Origin: Aestuariibaculum sediminum
GTDB taxonomy: Bacteria; Bacteroidota; Bacteroidia; Flavobacteriales; Flavobacteriaceae
Direction of reading: 5' to 3'
Assembly: GCF_014596945.1 (NCBI RefSeq)
Contig: NZ_JACVXB010000001.1
Span: 804,314-868,313 of the forward strand
DNA length: 64,000 nt
The notes below the pieces were generated by a model. That model searched no databases. It saw nothing but the letters and a program-made list of their open reading frames with translations, and was not told the origin of the DNA. The position numbers and the translations under genes are program-made. Positions 5,809-46,432 of the stretch are shown one piece after another; position 1 is the stretch's first letter, and every line of letters starts with the position of its first letter.

Positions 5809-8184
5809 TTAAAATTTAAAATTATATGAAACAGATGGAATAACACCAAAAATTGAAATACGTGTCGCTTCATTAAGTCCAGTTTGGTCGCTTTGGCGGA
5901 ATGATATTGAAGCCGCATTTCTACGATTATATACGTTGTAAATGCCAAATACCCATTCTCCTTTCCAATTATTATCAGGCTTTTTATTAGGCTTATACGT
6001 TGCCGATAAATCTAACCTATGATAACTTGGAAGTCGATCTCCGTTTCTATTTGCATAAGTAGCTACCGAAAGACCTTCATAGGTATATTGTCCGTTAGGA
6101 TACGTTACAGGACGGCCTGTTTGAAATATTAAATTAGAACCAAAACTCCACTTATCGTTAAGTTTATAATTTCCTGTTATCGAAATATCATGAGTTCGGT
6201 CAAAAGGAGTATTATACCAGGCTCCGCCATTTATTCCTGGCCCGCCAGCTTTACCTCCGAGCGTACGTTGTTCTGATTTTGATAAAGTGTAAGCAAACCA
6301 ACCGGTGAAATCTCCTTTATTTTTTCGGAGTAATAGCTCTAAACCATAAGCACGAGCCTCTCCATTTAAAATCTCGGTTTCTATATTGTTATTTCCAATC
6401 AGGTCCGATCCGTCGATATAATCAATTCTATTATCGACCGTTTTGTAATACGATTCTAATTCAAGAGCATAGGTGTTATTCTTGAATTTTGTAAAATAAC
6501 CTATTGCATACTGATTGGAAAGTTGTGGTTTTATGTATTGACCTGAAGGCGTCCACACGTCTAAGGGTGTTACCGAGGATGTATTAGAGAGCAAATGTAA
6601 ATATTGAGCCGCTCTGGTGTAACTCGCTTTAATAGCCGTATTATTATTAAGCTGATAAGAAAGTCCAAATCTCGGCTCCAAATTGTTAAATTTCTTAATA
6701 CTCTCTCCTTTTTCATAATAGGTTTCATCCTGAGCTTCACCGCGTTCGTAAATATCCAAATTAGAATTATAAACAACCGGCTGATCGTTAACATAATTAG
6801 TCATACTTTGTCCGCCTAATCTGAAAAAAGAAGATAATCTTAATCCATATTGCATGGACAATTTATTGCTAATTTCGTGTTCTGCACTTACATATAATCC
6901 TCCTTCAAAAGCCCTTTTTTCATCTAATTTTAAATAATTAATGGACGAGGTTTCGGTACTCGGCTCAATTTCTCCAGGATTTAGATTATAAGTAATACCA
7001 CTAACACCAAAATCAAGGTTTATTTTATCATTTAAGTAATATTTTAAGTCGTATTTGAGGTTATAATTTTTAATATCGGCTAACCAGTCGAGTTCAATAA
7101 AATCGAGTATAATTTGGTAATCATACTTACTGTAAATAAAGGATAAATTAGAAAACAGTTTGTCGCTAAATATGTGGTTCCATCTTAAATTACCCGATGC
7201 ATTACCGTAATTGTTTTTTATAACACTTGAAAGGTTAAATACATCACGACCAAAATAACCCGAAAGGTAAACCCTGTTATTATCATTTATTTGATAATTG
7301 GTTTTTAGATTTAAATCATAAAATGAGATTTTATCATCTTTTAAATCTTCTATCATTTTCATTAACAGATGTGCATATGAAGCTCTACCAGCAACTAAAA
7401 AAGAGCCTTTATCGCCTAATATTGGACCTTCGGCCGCTAACCGACTTGAAATTAATCCTACGCCGCCATTAAAGCTAAAGTCTTTGCTGTTTCCGTCTTT
7501 CTGCCTTACATCTAAAACAGATGATACACGCCCACCAAAATTGGCAGGAATATCGCCTTTGTAAAGCTTTATATCCTTAATCGCATCAGCATTAAACACC
7601 GAGAAGAAACCAAAAAAGTGTGATGTATTATAAATAATCGCCTCATCTAATAACACTAAATTTTGATCGGCCGCACCTCCTCTTACATTAAATCCAGCCG
7701 AACCTTCGCCGTTATTCGTAACCCCAGGAAGTGTTTGAATTGACTTTAAAACATCTACTTCTCCCAGCACCACCGGAATTTGTTTAATAGTACCGGAATT
7801 AAGCTTAGAAACGCTCATTTGAGGTTTTCTAATAGCAATTTGTTCAGGTTCTTCAGCAACCACAACCACTTCATCTAAAGAGGTAGAAAACTCCTCCAAT
7901 TCAAAATCTAAAGTGGTATCTGCATTTAAATCAATTGTTTTAGTAATGGTATTATATCCTAGATACGATACTATTACGGTGTAATTTCCTTTTGGAGCTG
8001 TTAATGAATAAAAACCGTATTCATTGGTAATCGAACCATTATTGGTGCCTTGCAAGAAAATAGTTGCCCCTATTAACGTTTCTCCATTGGAGATGTCCTT
8101 TAAGGTACCTCTTATTGTGTACTTTTCTTGCCCCCATATTAAACAGCTAAATAACATACTTATGCATATCGCAATGTGCCTCAT
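5809..8184 (-). CDS. TonB-dependent receptor with carboxypeptidase-like N-terminal domain
   Basis: Outer-membrane transporter of 791 residues. A signal peptide (about 1-18, cut after IWG) precedes a carboxypeptidase regulatory-like Ig-fold domain (about 23-105, IRGTLKDISNGETLIGATIF). Next come a plug domain (about 125-235, VRGGAADQNLVLLDEAIIY) and a beta-barrel ending in SYNFKF. It pairs with the DUF4249 lipoprotein directly downstream. It has no STN domain, so it is probably not the receptor sensed by the neighbouring FecR. The family is found in most Bacteroidota with unknown substrate; no hydrolase neighbours hint at a glycan. Confidence 0.92.
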   Translation of the reverse strand: MRHIAICISMLFSCLIWGQEKYTIRGTLKDISNGETLIGATIFLQGTNNGSITNEYGFYSLTAPKGNYTVIVSYLGYNTITKTIDLNADTTLDFELEEFSTSLDEVVVVAEEPEQIAIRKPQMSVSKLNSGTIKQIPVVLGEVDVLKSIQTLPGVTNNGEGSAGFNVRGGAADQNLVLLDEAIIYNTSHFFGFFSVFNADAIKDIKLYKGDIPANFGGRVSSVLDVRQKDGNSKDFSFNGGVGLISSRLAAEGPILGDKGSFLVAGRASYAHLLMKMIEDLKDDKISFYDLNLKTNYQINDNNRVYLSGYFGRDVFNLSSVIKNNYGNASGNLRWNHIFSDKLFSNLSFIYSKYDYQIILDFIELDWLADIKNYNLKYDLKYYLNDKINLDFGVSGITYNLNPGEIEPSTETSSINYLKLDEKRAFEGGLYVSAEHEISNKLSMQYGLRLSSFFRLGGQSMTNYVNDQPVVYNSNLDIYERGEAQDETYYEKGESIKKFNNLEPRFGLSYQLNNNTAIKASYTRAAQYLHLLSNTSSVTPLDVWTPSGQYIKPQLSNQYAIGYFTKFKNNTYALELESYYKTVDNRIDYIDGSDLIGNNNIETEILNGEARAYGLELLLRKNKGDFTGWFAYTLSKSEQRTLGGKAGGPGINGGAWYNTPFDRTHDISITGNYKLNDKWSFGSNLIFQTGRPVTYPNGQYTYEGLSVATYANRNGDRLPSYHRLDLSATYKPNKKPDNNWKGEWVFGIYNVYNRRNAASISFRQSDQTGLNEATRISIFGVIPSVSYNFKF

Positions 8185-8274
8185 ATAAATTGCTTTCTTA
8201 AAGTTATTTTAAAAATCAATATTGATATTTTCCTAAACTGGATTAATTTATAATGAAAGAAAAAAGCCACAAAC

Positions 8275-8300
8275 AAAAAAGCTCAGATAATAATCTGAGC
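8275..8300 (-). terminator. intrinsic terminator of the OmpH-like gene
   Basis: On the minus strand an 8-bp perfect stem GCTCAGAT / ATCTGAGC with a 4-base loop is followed by a run of six T. It lies 27 bp after the stop codon of the OmpH-like gene. Confidence 0.9.
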
Positions 8301-8326
8301 CCGTTTATTTGAATTAATTCATTCTA

Positions 8327-8842
8327 TTATTTCTTGTATGCCTCATTTAAAGCATCGGTTATCGTTTTTGTTAAATCATTATCATCAGTTCCGTACATTA
8401 CTGTAGCGGCTGCTTCACTTGTACCTAATATATAAGTATAACCATTTTTCTTGCCATAATCTTTCACAAACGCTTTAACATGATTAATTACAGAATCGAT
8501 ATCCGCCTGGAATTCCTTTTGCATCATTTGCTGCTCCATTTGCATTTGTTGTTGCAATTGCTGCTGCTTTTTATAAATCGGTTCCATTATTTGCTGCGCC
8601 TTGGCCTGAGATGAACGTTGTGCTAGAGCTTGCTTTTCTTGCGCTTCAAGTTGAAACGCCTGCCCTATACTATCGGCCCTTTTTCTAAAAGCAGTTTCCT
8701 TTTCTTCATATTTAGTTTCAACATCCTTCTTCTCTTGATAGTCGTTAATAACCGTTCCGTTATCTACAAAACCAATTTTTGCCTGTTTTTGGCAAGAAGA
8801 AAATGCAATGGCAATTGCTACCAAGTAAATAATTCTTTTCAT
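8327..8842 (-). CDS. OmpH/Skp-family periplasmic chaperone-like lipoprotein
   Basis: Protein of 171 residues from ATG at 8842. A lipobox (AFSSC) follows the short signal MKRIIYLVAIAIA. The mature part has the Skp/OmpH pattern: a short strand (KIGFVDNGTVINDY), two long charged helices rich in Gln, Lys and Met (QQQLQQQMQMEQQMMQ) forming a coiled coil, then a C-terminal strand region (YTYILGTSEAAATVMYG). Skp proteins hold unfolded outer-membrane proteins in the periplasm. A longer frame from TTG 8869 is possible, but the minus-strand TACATTTG at 8867-8874 looks like a -7 promoter box and would overlap that start, so I chose 8842. Unlike classic Skp it appears lipid-anchored. Confidence 0.85.
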   Translation of the reverse strand: MKRIIYLVAIAIAFSSCQKQAKIGFVDNGTVINDYQEKKDVETKYEEKETAFRKRADSIGQAFQLEAQEKQALAQRSSQAKAQQIMEPIYKKQQQLQQQMQMEQQMMQKEFQADIDSVINHVKAFVKDYGKKNGYTYILGTSEAAATVMYGTDDNDLTKTITDALNEAYKK

Positions 8843-9070: not shown

Positions 9071-9931
9071 TTATTTGTTTTTCAAGACATAAATTAAAGA
9101 AGAAGCTTCTTTTGAGGATATAGCCTTTATATTAGAGCGCAATCCAATAACAAAACCTTTGAGATAATTCATTTTTCCCGTTTTATACTTTTCAGAAAGG
9201 AGACTCACATAAAACGCATCGAAAGGCATTGGAATAATGTTTTTAACATGCATTTCAATTTTTGAAAATAATGAAGCTATTGATTTTGCATTAAAATGCC
9301 AAAGGTGTCTTGGAACATCGTAAGCAGCCCAGAAGGATTTATAATATACCGCATCGTAACTTTTATAATTTGGAACAGCAATTATTAAAGTACCATTTGG
9401 TTTTAGTACTTTTTTAAAACATTTAATTTGTACTTCAAGATTTGGTAAATGTTCTAAAACATGCCAAAGCGTAATCACATCAAAACTATGGGAATCAAAT
9501 TTGGACAACTGATTAACATCAAAAACAGCATTATTGGTTTTCCTGTTTGCAACTCCCCTAGCCTCTAGGTTTGGTTCAATTCCAAAAACAGACCAACCAT
9601 TTTTTTTTGCTGTTTGTAAAAAATCACCTGTACCACAACCAACATCCAAAATAATTTTTGAATCGGTTTGCAATGAATTTATTAATTGCAGTTTTTTGTT
9701 TAAGGCATAACTTCTAACAAGATGATACGCTTTTTCAAAAACATTTCGTTTCGCATCGGTATGCGAAATATAATCGTCGCTTTTGTAATATTGAGGAAGT
9801 AATTTTAAATCGGGTTGCGGATGCGTTTCCAAAAATCCATATTCAGAATTTTCAATTAAACTAAACTCCTCTCCAGAAACAGAATGGTCTTTTACTTTTA
9901 AATACACGTTTTTTGTGTTTTCTTTTACCAC
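9071..9931 (-). CDS. class I SAM-dependent methyltransferase
   Basis: Cytoplasmic methyltransferase of 286 residues. The SAM-binding motif I is at about residues 93-103 (IILDVGCGTGDF), with motif post-I at FGIEPN and motif IV near VITLWHVLEHLPN. This 'WHVLEH' pattern is typical of the Methyltransf_23 / UbiG-like group. The N-terminal 50 residues resemble the leader found in related proteins that act on glycans or lipids, but the substrate cannot be told. The start is GTG at 9931: an in-frame stop lies 18 bp upstream and no ATG is found near. It follows mnmG on the minus strand after the parS-like palindrome at 10001-10030. Confidence 0.88.
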   Translation of the reverse strand: MVKENTKNVYLKVKDHSVSGEEFSLIENSEYGFLETHPQPDLKLLPQYYKSDDYISHTDAKRNVFEKAYHLVRSYALNKKLQLINSLQTDSKIILDVGCGTGDFLQTAKKNGWSVFGIEPNLEARGVANRKTNNAVFDVNQLSKFDSHSFDVITLWHVLEHLPNLEVQIKCFKKVLKPNGTLIIAVPNYKSYDAVYYKSFWAAYDVPRHLWHFNAKSIASLFSKIEMHVKNIIPMPFDAFYVSLLSEKYKTGKMNYLKGFVIGLRSNIKAISSKEASSLIYVLKNK

Positions 9932-21911: not shown

Positions 21912-22038
21912 AATTAAAATGAAATGAGATAAAAATTGATTAACATTATACAAATACCACTGTATACACGATGAAGTACTAATCTAAGCATTATTTTTGA
22001 ACGTTGTTTTACTAAACATATCTTTGATGTGATAATTT

Positions 22039-22389
22039 CTATTTATCGAATGTAATTTTCAGCTTTGCTTCCGTTTTATAAACAATCAAAAACACCCACA
22101 AAAGGTTAGTAAACATAACTATTCCAAGAGATAGAAGGTGATTTCGTTCATCGATAAAAAACCCTACTATCGATGTGAAAAATAAAATTAATGAATATTT
22201 TATCATATTCTCTGCTCCACATTTCTGTGCAAAATCCCATTTTTCCTGACTTTCCATTGCTCGTTTTGTTCGATATCCATACCACCAATTAATGTCTTTT
22301 GGAGGATATTTTTTTAAAATTGCTCCGGCAATTAATCCAACAGAACCCGTCAGGATACTTGTAAATATTATGATAAAATTGAACGTCAT
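22039..22389 (-). CDS. SdpI family membrane protein
   Basis: Integral membrane protein of 116 residues with about three transmembrane helices (about 4-25, 63-79 and 84-105). The family signature NWWYGYRTKRAMESQEKWDFAQ lies in the first loop. In Bacillus, SdpI gives immunity to the SdpC toxin; in Bacteroidota short SdpI-like proteins are common with no toxin nearby, and none is seen here. The gene is 15 bp upstream of the 3' end region of the oxidoreductase gene on the opposite side in map order, and may be co-transcribed with it. Confidence 0.85.
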   Translation of the reverse strand: MTFNFIIIFTSILTGSVGLIAGAILKKYPPKDINWWYGYRTKRAMESQEKWDFAQKCGAENMIKYSLILFFTSIVGFFIDERNHLLSLGIVMFTNLLWVFLIVYKTEAKLKITFDK

Positions 22390-22404
22390 AATTATGGATG
22401 ATGA

Positions 22405-23322
22405 TTATAAGATATCAATAGTCACATTTCCTCTTTTTCGCCCTTGGTCAACATACGCATGTGCTTTTACTATATCATTAAGCTTAAAGGTTTTATCTAT
22501 AAAAGGTTTTAACTGCCCGTTCTCGGCCATTTTTTTTATAAGTTTAAGGTGTTCATCTTTCTCTTTGGTTAGCATTTTTACAGAAATAAATACTCCGTTT
22601 GTTTTCAACACCTTCTTTGCTTTTGATTTTGTAGTTTTTCCAACAGCATCAAAAACTATATCGAATTTTTCAACGCCTTTAGAATAGTCCTCCTTTTTAT
22701 AATCTAATAAACCTGAAGCTCCTAATGATCTTACCATATCAAAATTGGAAGCACTGCAAACACCTTTTACCGAGGCACCTTTCTGATTTGCGATTTGAAC
22801 AGCATAGCTTCCAACACTTCCCGATGCACCATAAACTAAAACGTTTTGTTCTTTTTTTAAATTAGCTTTCTCCAAAAGGTATATAGCCGCCATTGCTCCA
22901 ACAGGTAATGCCGCAGCTTCATGAAAACTCAAGTTTTTAGGCATTAAATCAACTACACCGTGTTTCCATTTTTGTGGTAAACATATATATTCAGCATACG
23001 AACCTGTTTTTAACATTGTAGTGGTTCCAAATACACAATCTCCAACATTAAATCTAGTTATACTATTTCCAGTTTCTTCAACAATTCCTGCCAATTCATG
23101 TCCTAAAATTTTTTTCTTAGGTTTGAAAAGTCCGAAAATTAATCTTGCAGGAAGCCAAAATATCCAAGGGAAATCAAAACTTCTTAGTCTAACATCTCCT
23201 GTAGTTACGGTAGCTGCATGTATTTTTACCAGAATTTCTTCATCTTTAGGTTTGGGCTTTTCGATATCCTTTAGTTTAAGGACTTCTGGTGGCCCATATT
23301 TTTCATGAACTACTGCTTTCAT
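22405..23322 (-). CDS. NAD(P)-dependent medium-chain alcohol dehydrogenase / quinone reductase-like protein
   Basis: Cytoplasmic oxidoreductase of 305 residues. The N-terminal GroES-like domain (about 1-120) starts MKAVVHEKYGPPEVLKLKDI, as usual in MDR enzymes. The Rossmann domain (about 125-260) has VLVYGASGSVGSYAVQIA as its nucleotide-binding motif. The structural zinc cysteines are missing and the chain is short, which points to the zinc-free quinone reductase/reticulon-4-interacting-like branch. ATG start at 23322. The substrate cannot be inferred. The SdpI gene follows after 15 bp. Confidence 0.9.
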   Translation of the reverse strand: MKAVVHEKYGPPEVLKLKDIEKPKPKDEEILVKIHAATVTTGDVRLRSFDFPWIFWLPARLIFGLFKPKKKILGHELAGIVEETGNSITRFNVGDCVFGTTTMLKTGSYAEYICLPQKWKHGVVDLMPKNLSFHEAAALPVGAMAAIYLLEKANLKKEQNVLVYGASGSVGSYAVQIANQKGASVKGVCSASNFDMVRSLGASGLLDYKKEDYSKGVEKFDIVFDAVGKTTKSKAKKVLKTNGVFISVKMLTKEKDEHLKLIKKMAENGQLKPFIDKTFKLNDIVKAHAYVDQGRKRGNVTIDIL

Positions 23323-23440
23323 AGTTAATTTTTAGAAATTGTTGAACTATTTAAATGTTACCAATATCAGAATTAATAAAAAATTTCTGTTGTTCATGTG
23401 GTTAAAATTATTATTTCTTTTGCGTTTGGTCACAATGAAT

Positions 23441-23570
23441 GGCAACGGTTGGTGCATGTTTAGTTACGAGTCTCGCACAACTAATTTAACAAAAGGAAAC
23501 TGACCCTTAGAGAAATCCAAAGGATTTTCCGAGTAACAAAGAACCAAGCAATTAATTATACACGTTATGG
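23441..23570. repeat. structured attC-like intergenic element
   Basis: About 130 bp of non-coding DNA downstream of the orphan lipoprotein gene. On the minus strand it starts with CCATAACGTGTATAATTAAT and ends with CATGCACCAACCGTTGCC; the termini are partly inverted copies of each other (AACG-TGT vs GGCAACGGTTGGT on the other strand). Inside are a hairpin AAATCC-AAA-GGATTT (23513-23527) and a hairpin TTAGTT-CGAG-T-CTCG-AACTAA (23460-23484). I recognise the same words from intergenic elements of other Flavobacteriaceae genomes from memory, so this looks like one copy of a dispersed family. It resembles an integron attC site in shape, but a matching integrase is not seen here. Confidence 0.65.
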
Positions 23571-23588
23571 ACAATCGTATTTATTTTT

Positions 23589-24284
23589 TTAATAAACTAT
23601 TTCGGTTATTATTAATCGTTTTATGAAATAGTCGTTTAAATCAACTTTTGATTCCAGCATTCGCTCAGCAAAAATATCAGGATTAATTTTTCCAGCAGCG
23701 TCACGTATTTTAATATATTCCGTTAGAAAATCCGATTTATTTGATATTGCGTTTAATGCCCTCGAATAGCTTCCATCATAATTTATATCACTCCAATTTT
23801 TTCGAGATTCGACTAGTATTGAATCTTCATCGATAGGTTCTTTGTATCGAAAATCTGATACTGATGTTTCATATCTAAATGTTCCGTCTGACTTTAAATG
23901 TTTTCGTCGGATATTTAACGTCGCATCACTGTTTTTGTAGAAAGTCAGTTTTTTAGGGTCACTTTCAATCCAAATAGAATCTGGAACGCTGTAAATTTCT
24001 AATCTTAATGTGCTTCTTTTTAAATATTCCCTGCTGTTTTCAGAAATGTTTTGACGATACTCCGTCTTTCCTTTAGATAATTCCGCTAAGAATTGATTGT
24101 AAGCCTTTTTTATGCCTATATTAGGGTATTGTCTTTTTAAAAAGTCAGATTCAAAGTCATTCACAAGACAAGTTAGTGTTGCGCTGTTTTCTTTTCCTAA
24201 AATCTTTTCAAATTCCGTTATTTCTTTTTGGTTTGAACAACTAAGAGTTAGATGTAAAATTATAATTAGATTGATGTATCTCAT
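23589..24284 (-). CDS. lipoprotein of unknown function
   Basis: Protein of 231 residues. The signal peptide ends in a lipobox (LTLSC, Cys16). The mature part is charged, mixed alpha/beta and has no motif I recognise; a Trp/Asn-rich stretch (NWSDINYDGSYSRALNAI) is the most notable. It is not in an operon: there is 155 bp to the next gene upstream, and the attC-like element at 23441-23570 follows 19 bp after the stop. The gene-plus-element arrangement is what a cassette would look like, so recent acquisition is possible. Confidence 0.75.
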   Translation of the reverse strand: MRYINLIIILHLTLSCSNQKEITEFEKILGKENSATLTCLVNDFESDFLKRQYPNIGIKKAYNQFLAELSKGKTEYRQNISENSREYLKRSTLRLEIYSVPDSIWIESDPKKLTFYKNSDATLNIRRKHLKSDGTFRYETSVSDFRYKEPIDEDSILVESRKNWSDINYDGSYSRALNAISNKSDFLTEYIKIRDAAGKINPDIFAERMLESKVDLNDYFIKRLIITEIVY

Positions 24285-24439
24285 TCTTCTGATTCATGTT
24301 TCCCTCTAAGATATAAGAGTATTACTTAAAGTACAAATTCAAACTGTAATAAATTATTTATAAAATCGTAAGCTATTTTTTTTTATAAGACATTGATCTC
24401 TAAATTTTTCTATATTAGAATAACGTGACGTATTACTAT

Positions 24440-46301: not shown

Positions 46302-46342
46302 ACTAATGAAAAGGTGCTAGCCTGCATTGCAACAGGCTATTC

Positions 46343-46425
46343 AACTTTTCCCTTCGACGGTACTAACCGTATCAGGTTCAAAGGGTATGTCTCAGTTCTA
46401 TATGGTTTAGAACACCCCTAAAGTT
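46343..46425 (-). promoter_or_regulatory. TPP (thi-box) riboswitch
   Basis: The minus strand carries the conserved aptamer pieces: GGGGTG near 46419, CTGAGA (46390-46395), ACCCTTTGAACCTGATACGG (about 46366-46385), GTTAGTACCG and CGAAGGGA. The closing stem P1 pairs 46343-46348 with 46420-46425 (AACTTT / AAAGTT). It controls the whole thiS-C-E-D-E-G-H operon: with TPP bound, the terminator at 46274-46301 is expected to form. Confidence 0.95.
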
Positions 46426-46432
46426 TACGTTA

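Follow-up and report, generated by a model that had tools for sequence, protein, structure and literature searches.

What is the folded intergenic element that follows an orphan lipoprotein-like gene in Aestuariibaculum sediminum, and what does it do there? An earlier note, made from the letters alone, had described about 130 bp with partly inverted ends and internal hairpins and had compared the gene-then-folded-element layout with an integron cassette. We examined the element in the window, that is, the whole 64,000-nucleotide stretch of contig NZ_JACVXB010000001.1 that was analysed, and in related genomes. The window element is probably a decayed solitary docking site of an integron-like gene-capture system, and judging from the comparative sequence data, elements of this type very likely serve as the recombination sites of such a system in Flavobacteriaceae and other Bacteroidota.

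The element in the window and its relatives

All of the words quoted before are present in the window sequence, with AACGTGTATAATTAAT at one end and CCAACCGTTGCC at the other on the minus strand, and the core of the flagged element was refined to 126 bp at 23444–23569. From the match to a covariance model (R1), an alignment (A2) and the sequence itself, this core was annotated as a putative attC-like cassette recombination site on the minus strand, solitary and partly decayed. R1 scored the window copy at 84.9 bits (E 3e-16), the match G000:C11:827757-827879 corresponding to 23444–23566 of the window. The left (5') arm, GTGTATAATTAATTGC in gene sense, lies at 23548–23563 (minus strand; columns 9–24 of A2) and pairs with the right (3') arm, GTAACTAAACATGCAC in gene sense, at 23452–23467 (minus strand; columns 115–132 of A2), keeping two of three characteristic A.C positions and reading A.A at the other. 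The internal hairpin TTAGTT-CGAG / CTCG-AACTAA does exist at 23460–23484 on the plus strand, but it overlaps the conserved right arm, and in the conserved fold the two outer arms pair with each other. The sequence CGTT at 23444–23447 (minus strand) represents the 4 bp that hold the cassette crossovers in relatives, as located by an identity profile along 52 pairs of homologous cassettes. In place of the outer AAC triplet the window copy has CAT and is therefore probably decayed.

The gene just upstream of the site (23589–24284, minus strand; an ORF whose stop lies 19 nt ahead of the site) encodes the lipoprotein-like protein of 231 aa, in which no Pfam family was found at E 0.01, and is likely the cassette gene of the window copy. 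Gene and site belong to an accessory insertion of about 2.5 kb (about 21912–24431), delimited by blastn and tblastn against the loci L326–L329 and by Pfam, which also holds an SdpI/YfhL-family gene (22039–22389, minus strand) and a zinc-type alcohol dehydrogenase / quinone oxidoreductase-like gene (22405–23322, minus strand), both assigned by ORF, Pfam and genus-mate comparison. The insertion is missing from four of four genus mates, in which the flanking genes are about 150–170 bp apart, and the expectation that site copies fall at breakpoints of gene gain and loss was borne out. Folded alone, the window copy is no more stable than its dinucleotide shuffles (z 0.24, 0.23 and −0.35), which counts against the integron-like reading, and it belongs to no Rfam family, with sub-threshold chance matches only. 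Since its structure stands at chance level when taken alone, the reading is carried by the comparison with relatives. Elsewhere in the window, a TPP riboswitch lies at 46332–46429 (minus strand; Rfam RF00059, 76 bits).

The putative docking site is carried by most genera of Flavobacteriaceae. BLAST matched 94 of the 199 family genomes examined (one per genus plus one extra congener), and R1, built from 53 sites, found the site in 172 of the 199 and in 151 of the 165 better ones; homologues do occur across Flavobacteriaceae, as the earlier note had suggested. Across the phylum, R1 detected the site in 58 of 247 genomes, comprising 16 of 27 from the same family and 42 of 220 from outside it. R1 gave 12 copies in the A. 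sediminum genome, where BLAST gave one and its "single copy" was therefore misleading, and 102 in another genome (G014); the per-genome R1 counts of the family and phylum surveys are lower bounds, few candidates having been scored, as the 102 may be too.

Among relatives the layout recurs as cassettes in head-to-tail arrays, in keeping with the cassette comparison drawn before. We found 393 sites in 53 of 59 regions that had been chosen for having sites or recombinases, with 56 sites over 60 kb in one genome (G068) and 37 over 60 kb in another (G157), each array in a single orientation. A motif scan of named genomes gave at least 117 loci with 370 sites among the matches listed; 88 of these 117 listed loci had two or more sites, and orientation was mixed in one. 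The listed loci include Winogradskyella, Psychroserpens, Polaribacter, Maribacter, Tenacibaculum, Lacinutrix, Olleya, Algibacter and others. By title, the listed matches are Flavobacteriales except for three metagenome-assembled genomes labelled Bacteroidia, Bacteroidetes and Algicola, the last being a gammaproteobacterial genus name that is given here as deposited. In genome G014 (L040, L041, L107), one 558-bp cassette occurs in nine near-identical copies in differing contexts.

Cassettes, crossover point and fold of the site

A cassette is mostly one gene followed by one site of ~125 nt. Among 268 cassettes (median 877 bp), the longest ORF lay on the sense strand in 242 and on the opposite strand in 5, and 21 had none; the ORF starts a median of 31 nt past the cassette start and stops a median of 10 nt ahead of the site. 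The 247 cassette proteins fell into 213 families. A scan of 100 of 211 protein representatives, taken in random order with two short ones left out, yielded 38 Pfam families at E 1e-4, with RDD, GNAT acetyltransferase, ParE and KAP NTPase among the 25 listed, and 31 PADLOC models at E 1e-5, with QatA, SduA, PifA and SAVED among the 25 listed, each of the latter 25 being matched by one protein and several by the same protein.

The crossover point was located in 52 pairs of homologous cassettes from 13 families. Identity was 0.98–1.0 up to and including CGTT and 0.22–0.45 over the next 7 nt, and on the start side it was 0.95–1.0 from CG onward; 51 of the 52 pairs come from within one genome, which is a point against the integron-like reading. 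We then compared the nucleotides after CGTT at the cassette start with those before AAC at the end of the same cassette, using the 346 of 393 sites with an anchor at each end (anchoring failed for 27, and the others were cut or partial). The two ends of a cassette were complementary at 5.65 of 8 positions in 280 cassettes, compared with 2.64 (sd 0.086) after permutation and with 2.92 of 8 between the ends of a single unaltered site. A first replication in the named loci gave 5.90 of 7 vs 2.72 (147/187); because 29 of these 117 loci have an exact 60-mer in common with the first set, it was repeated without them, and the 88 loci without sampled exact 60-mer overlap gave 5.69 of 7 vs 2.75 (sd 0.13) over 134 cassettes, of which 98 matched at 6 or more of 7. 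Position 8 at the cassette start was A in 187 of 187 cassettes of the named loci and stood opposite C in 163. Together with the crossover data, the end complementarity indicates that each mobile unit brings its own outer stem and that the cut falls within CGTT.

The inner arms of the site covary, with 72 double-change cells vs 16.6 (sd 3.2) and 8–15 in slid controls. On the gene strand, in 335 of the 346 sites, three arm positions are A.C in 90, 45 and 84% and one is C.A in up to 21%, and G.T or T.G reaches at most 1% at any arm position; the A.C mismatches of the gene strand, which are fixed, and its C.A mismatches are G.T pairs on the bottom strand. The bottom strand folded better in 196 of 198 rebuilt sites, in 198 of 198 when the arms were taken alone and in 189 of 198 when sites were folded as they stand in the array; these 198 sites were pre-selected for end matches of at least 6 of 7 and a spacing of at most 2 kb, so the stability is inflated and the strand difference is not. 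We infer that the substrate is a single bottom strand. An RNA structure on the bottom strand would likewise favour G.U, which is a point against the integron-like reading. The same holds for mismatches other than A.C at arm positions 11–16 (for example A.G in 48 and T.C in 55 of 335 sites), which are probably an effect of counting right arms of 17 nt with no gap. Against a left arm of 16 nt, the right arm measures 16 nt in 40 of 53 sites, 17 nt in 12 and 15 nt in 1, and most sites therefore lack the bulged bases of attC; in these 53 sites the unpaired spacer is 3 nt vs 5–6 nt and the inner part 72–81 nt. According to an excerpt of PMC2727003, attC carries two or three extrahelical bases on one arm, and recombination persists when these are missing, although the choice of strand is then less marked.

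An experiment on a phage bears on the strand. Two attC sites had been predicted in Polaribacter phage P12002L, and IntI1 recombined the bottom strand of one of them with attI1 at the junction G/TT as well as the positive control, while its top strand and the other site did not recombine (excerpt of PMC9892861). This assay supports bottom-strand use, and canonical IntI may recognise relatives of the sites described here. R1 found eight sites in P12002L at E <1e-4, the assayed site being not necessarily among them; the phage genes run opposite to most of the sites, which counts against the integron-like reading. Some R1 sites in this lytic phage (L423, L424) are just 54–57 nt long and stand among methyltransferase genes.

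BLAST of one site against phage records returned no match, and we consider this search too insensitive because R1 finds the eight sites in P12002L and the site motif occurs in nine IMG/VR viral contigs (L414–L422). The nine contigs suggest that phages may carry cassettes; a recombinase query against viral contigs returned integrases at 29–44% identity. On the Tenacibaculum finnmarkense plasmid CP116296 (L293:4786-9125), two copies of the site each adjoin a pair of an IS91-family transposase and a tyrosine recombinase, as if an IS91-family element with a tyrosine recombinase targeted the sites, and in L309 a comparable recombinase fragment (8156–8668) is found close to a site.

The recombinase at the array end

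A tyrosine recombinase stands at the array end. Its sites lay downstream and co-directional in 21 of 26 cases, the regions being partly chosen; one recombinase was divergent with sites at its 5' side, and 4 of the 26 had no site within the fetched DNA, which is listed against the integron-like reading. Among the motif-found loci listed, 9 of 10 recombinases were co-directional and one divergent; 6 of these loci overlap the first set, and the remaining 4 are all co-directional. Just past the recombinase stop lies an attI-like site that ends in GTT, directly ahead of the first cassette start. Within 170 bp after the stop, 22 of the 31 testable loci among 39 recombinases matched at 6 or more of 7 positions (21 of 30 without one duplicate locus), compared with a mean of 2.1 and a maximum of 6 of 31 in shuffled controls; the 9 of 31 that scored below 6 of 7 weigh against the integron-like reading. 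Divergent recombinases had the attI at the 5' side in three of three loci, with 7, 6 and 7 of 7 matches. A second recombinase form of 277–306 aa, divergent, without the long N-terminal extension and with a 5' attI, was seen in L109/L153 (same locus), L295 and L297.

The search for tyrosine recombinases that had been proposed led to an array-type recombinase elsewhere in the A. sediminum genome. Contig C6 carries this gene (G000:C6:24258-25415), an attI ending in ACACGTT, a lipoprotein cassette, a site and a second cassette, followed near the contig end by a further site-like stretch. In the family survey, sites were present in 122 of the 126 genomes whose recombinase match was strong (threshold set at a gap in the scores) and in 50 of the other 73 (p 3.6e-8, phylogeny not corrected); 34 genomes with at least five sites and without a strong match count against the integron-like reading.

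The catalytic residues R-K-H-R-H-Y, a feature of the tyrosine recombinase superfamily, are intact in 29 of 29 array recombinases. From the lysine-box Arg to HxLRH they span 58–59 residues in 29 of 29, compared with a median of 100 (63–100) in 23 IntI and 62–66 in host Xer, and the IntI-specific insertion is absent from all 29. An N-terminal extension of at least 60 residues is present in 23 of the 29 vs 1 of 23 IntI and 0 of 19 host Xer. Trees placed IntI on one side of a branch, the 19 host Xer rows on another and the array recombinases apart from both, also after columns filled in <70% of rows were dropped; these were quick trees with long branches, without IntI locus L275, and were used solely for the separation of IntI and host Xer. 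The best solved relatives in a profile search were 4a8e (XerC-like, archaeal) and 5hxy (XerA), then IntI4 (2a3v). A Chryseobacterium plasmid (NZ_CP041688, L294) carries a recombinase annotated "site-specific tyrosine recombinase/integron integrase" with two weak sites downstream, at 8385–8508 and 9101–9225.

No Pfam family covers the N-terminal extension in its first member, and a solved-structure search with the extension gave chance-level matches. AlphaFold2 predicted a beta-beta-alpha-beta-beta-alpha-beta domain (pLDDT 78). In a structure comparison with VIA, the top seven rows for the isolated model were XPB N-terminal domains at Z 6.3–7.3, a range in which, according to the program's own warning for Z under 8, the likeness may reflect a common arrangement only. 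XPB-N-like domains read DNA junctions. Because Foldseek gave E 0.10 for XPB and 0.03 for its best row, YciH, we treat the likeness as a lead.

From these comparisons we propose the following mechanism. A cassette is usually one gene and then its ~125-nt site, and the bottom strand of this site would fold into a long hairpin, in which a cassette-specific outer stem that includes AAC/GTT is followed by an unpaired spacer, an inner stem of 16 bp where fixed G.T pairs occur, and a variable end. The XerA/IntI-related tyrosine recombinase at the array would carry out cassette recombination, joining the GTT of a site to the GTT of the attI beside its own gene, so that cassettes would be added next to attI; by joining site to site, the same enzyme would excise or reshuffle cassettes. 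The process is presumably active, and the window copy would be a decayed solitary site.

Alternative explanations and known systems

An ordinary integron remnant (CALIN), whose attC sites were made and moved by a canonical IntI, is an unlikely source of the sites, even though it would share attI, array, AAC/GTT boxes, unpaired spacer and bottom-strand hairpin, and NCBI names some array recombinases "site-specific tyrosine recombinase/integron integrase". Recombination by IntI1 of one predicted attC from the Polaribacter phage, which carries R1 sites, has made us rate this explanation slightly higher than before (PMC9892861, excerpt). Against it, no IntI above the TIGR02249 cut-off was found in the 199 family genomes, and the 70 of 247 phylum genomes that have one include none of the 27 from Flavobacteriaceae; in G248 and G263 the R1 sites adjoin a non-IntI recombinase and IntI lies on a separate contig. 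R1 gave no match at four IntI loci from this phylum, which are known by IntI alone, nor at a plasmid-borne integron carrying dfrA1 and aadA1. The left outer box of attC is RYYYAAC. Its right box is G|TTRRRY (PMC9892861, excerpt); AAC and GTT are conserved in our sites, but the boxes fit RYYYAAC and GTTRRRY in only 14 and 13 of 346. The array recombinases also lack the IntI insertion, and IntI forms a separate clade.

Dispersed repeats (REP-like or transcription terminators), with arrays shuffled by homologous recombination only, are a very improbable explanation: the sites do sit just past stop codons and fold, but homologous recombination would set breakpoints anywhere in the 125 nt, whereas they were observed within CGTT, and both the complementarity of cassette ends and the attI beside the recombinase gene would be left unexplained. 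Xer-type modules, in which chromosomal XerC/D would act on dif-like sites flanking each gene, are scarcely tenable in spite of the XerA-like core of the array recombinases, given that host XerC/D form a separate group (19 rows), that the sites are ~125-nt covarying imperfect palindromes while dif is about 28 bp long, and that a dedicated recombinase stands at the array end.

With an integron-like gene-capture system as the preferred reading, we think it fairly likely that a second integron lineage exists in Flavobacteriaceae and other Bacteroidota. Its tyrosine recombinase, which is not IntI, has no I2 insertion and often has a new N-terminal domain, would act on folded single-stranded bottom-strand hairpins with fixed G.T instead of bulges; the lineage would be separate from the canonical integrons that coexist in some genomes of the phylum, and the N-terminal domain would take over the hairpin reading of I2. 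Searches of open-access PMC, with bioRxiv preprints outside their scope, gave no description of this system among the matches listed, the closest of those found being PMC9892861. Integrons have been called unique platforms for recombining single-stranded DNA, and the I2 insertion is said not to have been identified elsewhere (PMC4792948, excerpt). The IntegronFinder 2.0 survey names, in an excerpt, one complete integron in Bacteroidetes proper (PMC9024848); Bacteroidota are among the phyla listed with integrons (PMC9668308, excerpt), and an excerpt of PMC10013915 reports no integrons by IntegronFinder 2.0 for a Tenacibaculum genome outside those searched here. The system matters because integrons have hardly been reported from Flavobacteriaceae. 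If a whole family uses a system that works without I2, comparing it with integrons would allow a test of what I2 contributes; the private complementary pair of ~11 nt found at the ends of most cassettes would offer a clean case for cassette birth; and the arrays would add a large pool of mobile genes, some of which match defence models.

Comparison with known systems places the flavobacterial system close to integrons. Both have a recombinase gene beside attI, a one-direction array of mostly single-gene cassettes with diverse functions, a site whose outer boxes contain AAC/GTT and whose fold has an unpaired spacer, an inner stem and a variable end, a crossover at the GTT triplet and a bottom-strand asymmetry, the folded site and its asymmetry being predicted from folding here. 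The canonical integron has an IntI with an additional domain around patch III (PMC9668308, excerpt). Unlike it, the flavobacterial recombinase lies outside the IntI clade without this insertion, bears an N-terminal extension in 23 of 29 cases and is usually oriented toward the array, attI lying 3' of it. The flavobacterial boxes are not GTTRRRY, both inner arms are 16 nt long and free of a bulge in 40 of 53 sites, with fixed G.T positions instead of extrahelical bases, and the outer stem of ~11 nt is cassette-specific. The attC-like reading of the earlier note was largely right. Because recombinase and box consensus depart from two defining features of canonical integrons, and most sites lack bulged bases, the system is not a canonical integron, and an assignment of the element to the attC of a known integron type was not supported. 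With XerA and XerC-XerD the array recombinases share the core-binding and catalytic domains; in contrast to these, they fall outside the host XerC/XerD clade, sit at arrays, have 58–59 vs 62–66 residues between the two catalytic motifs compared above, and would act on an attI plus folded sites.
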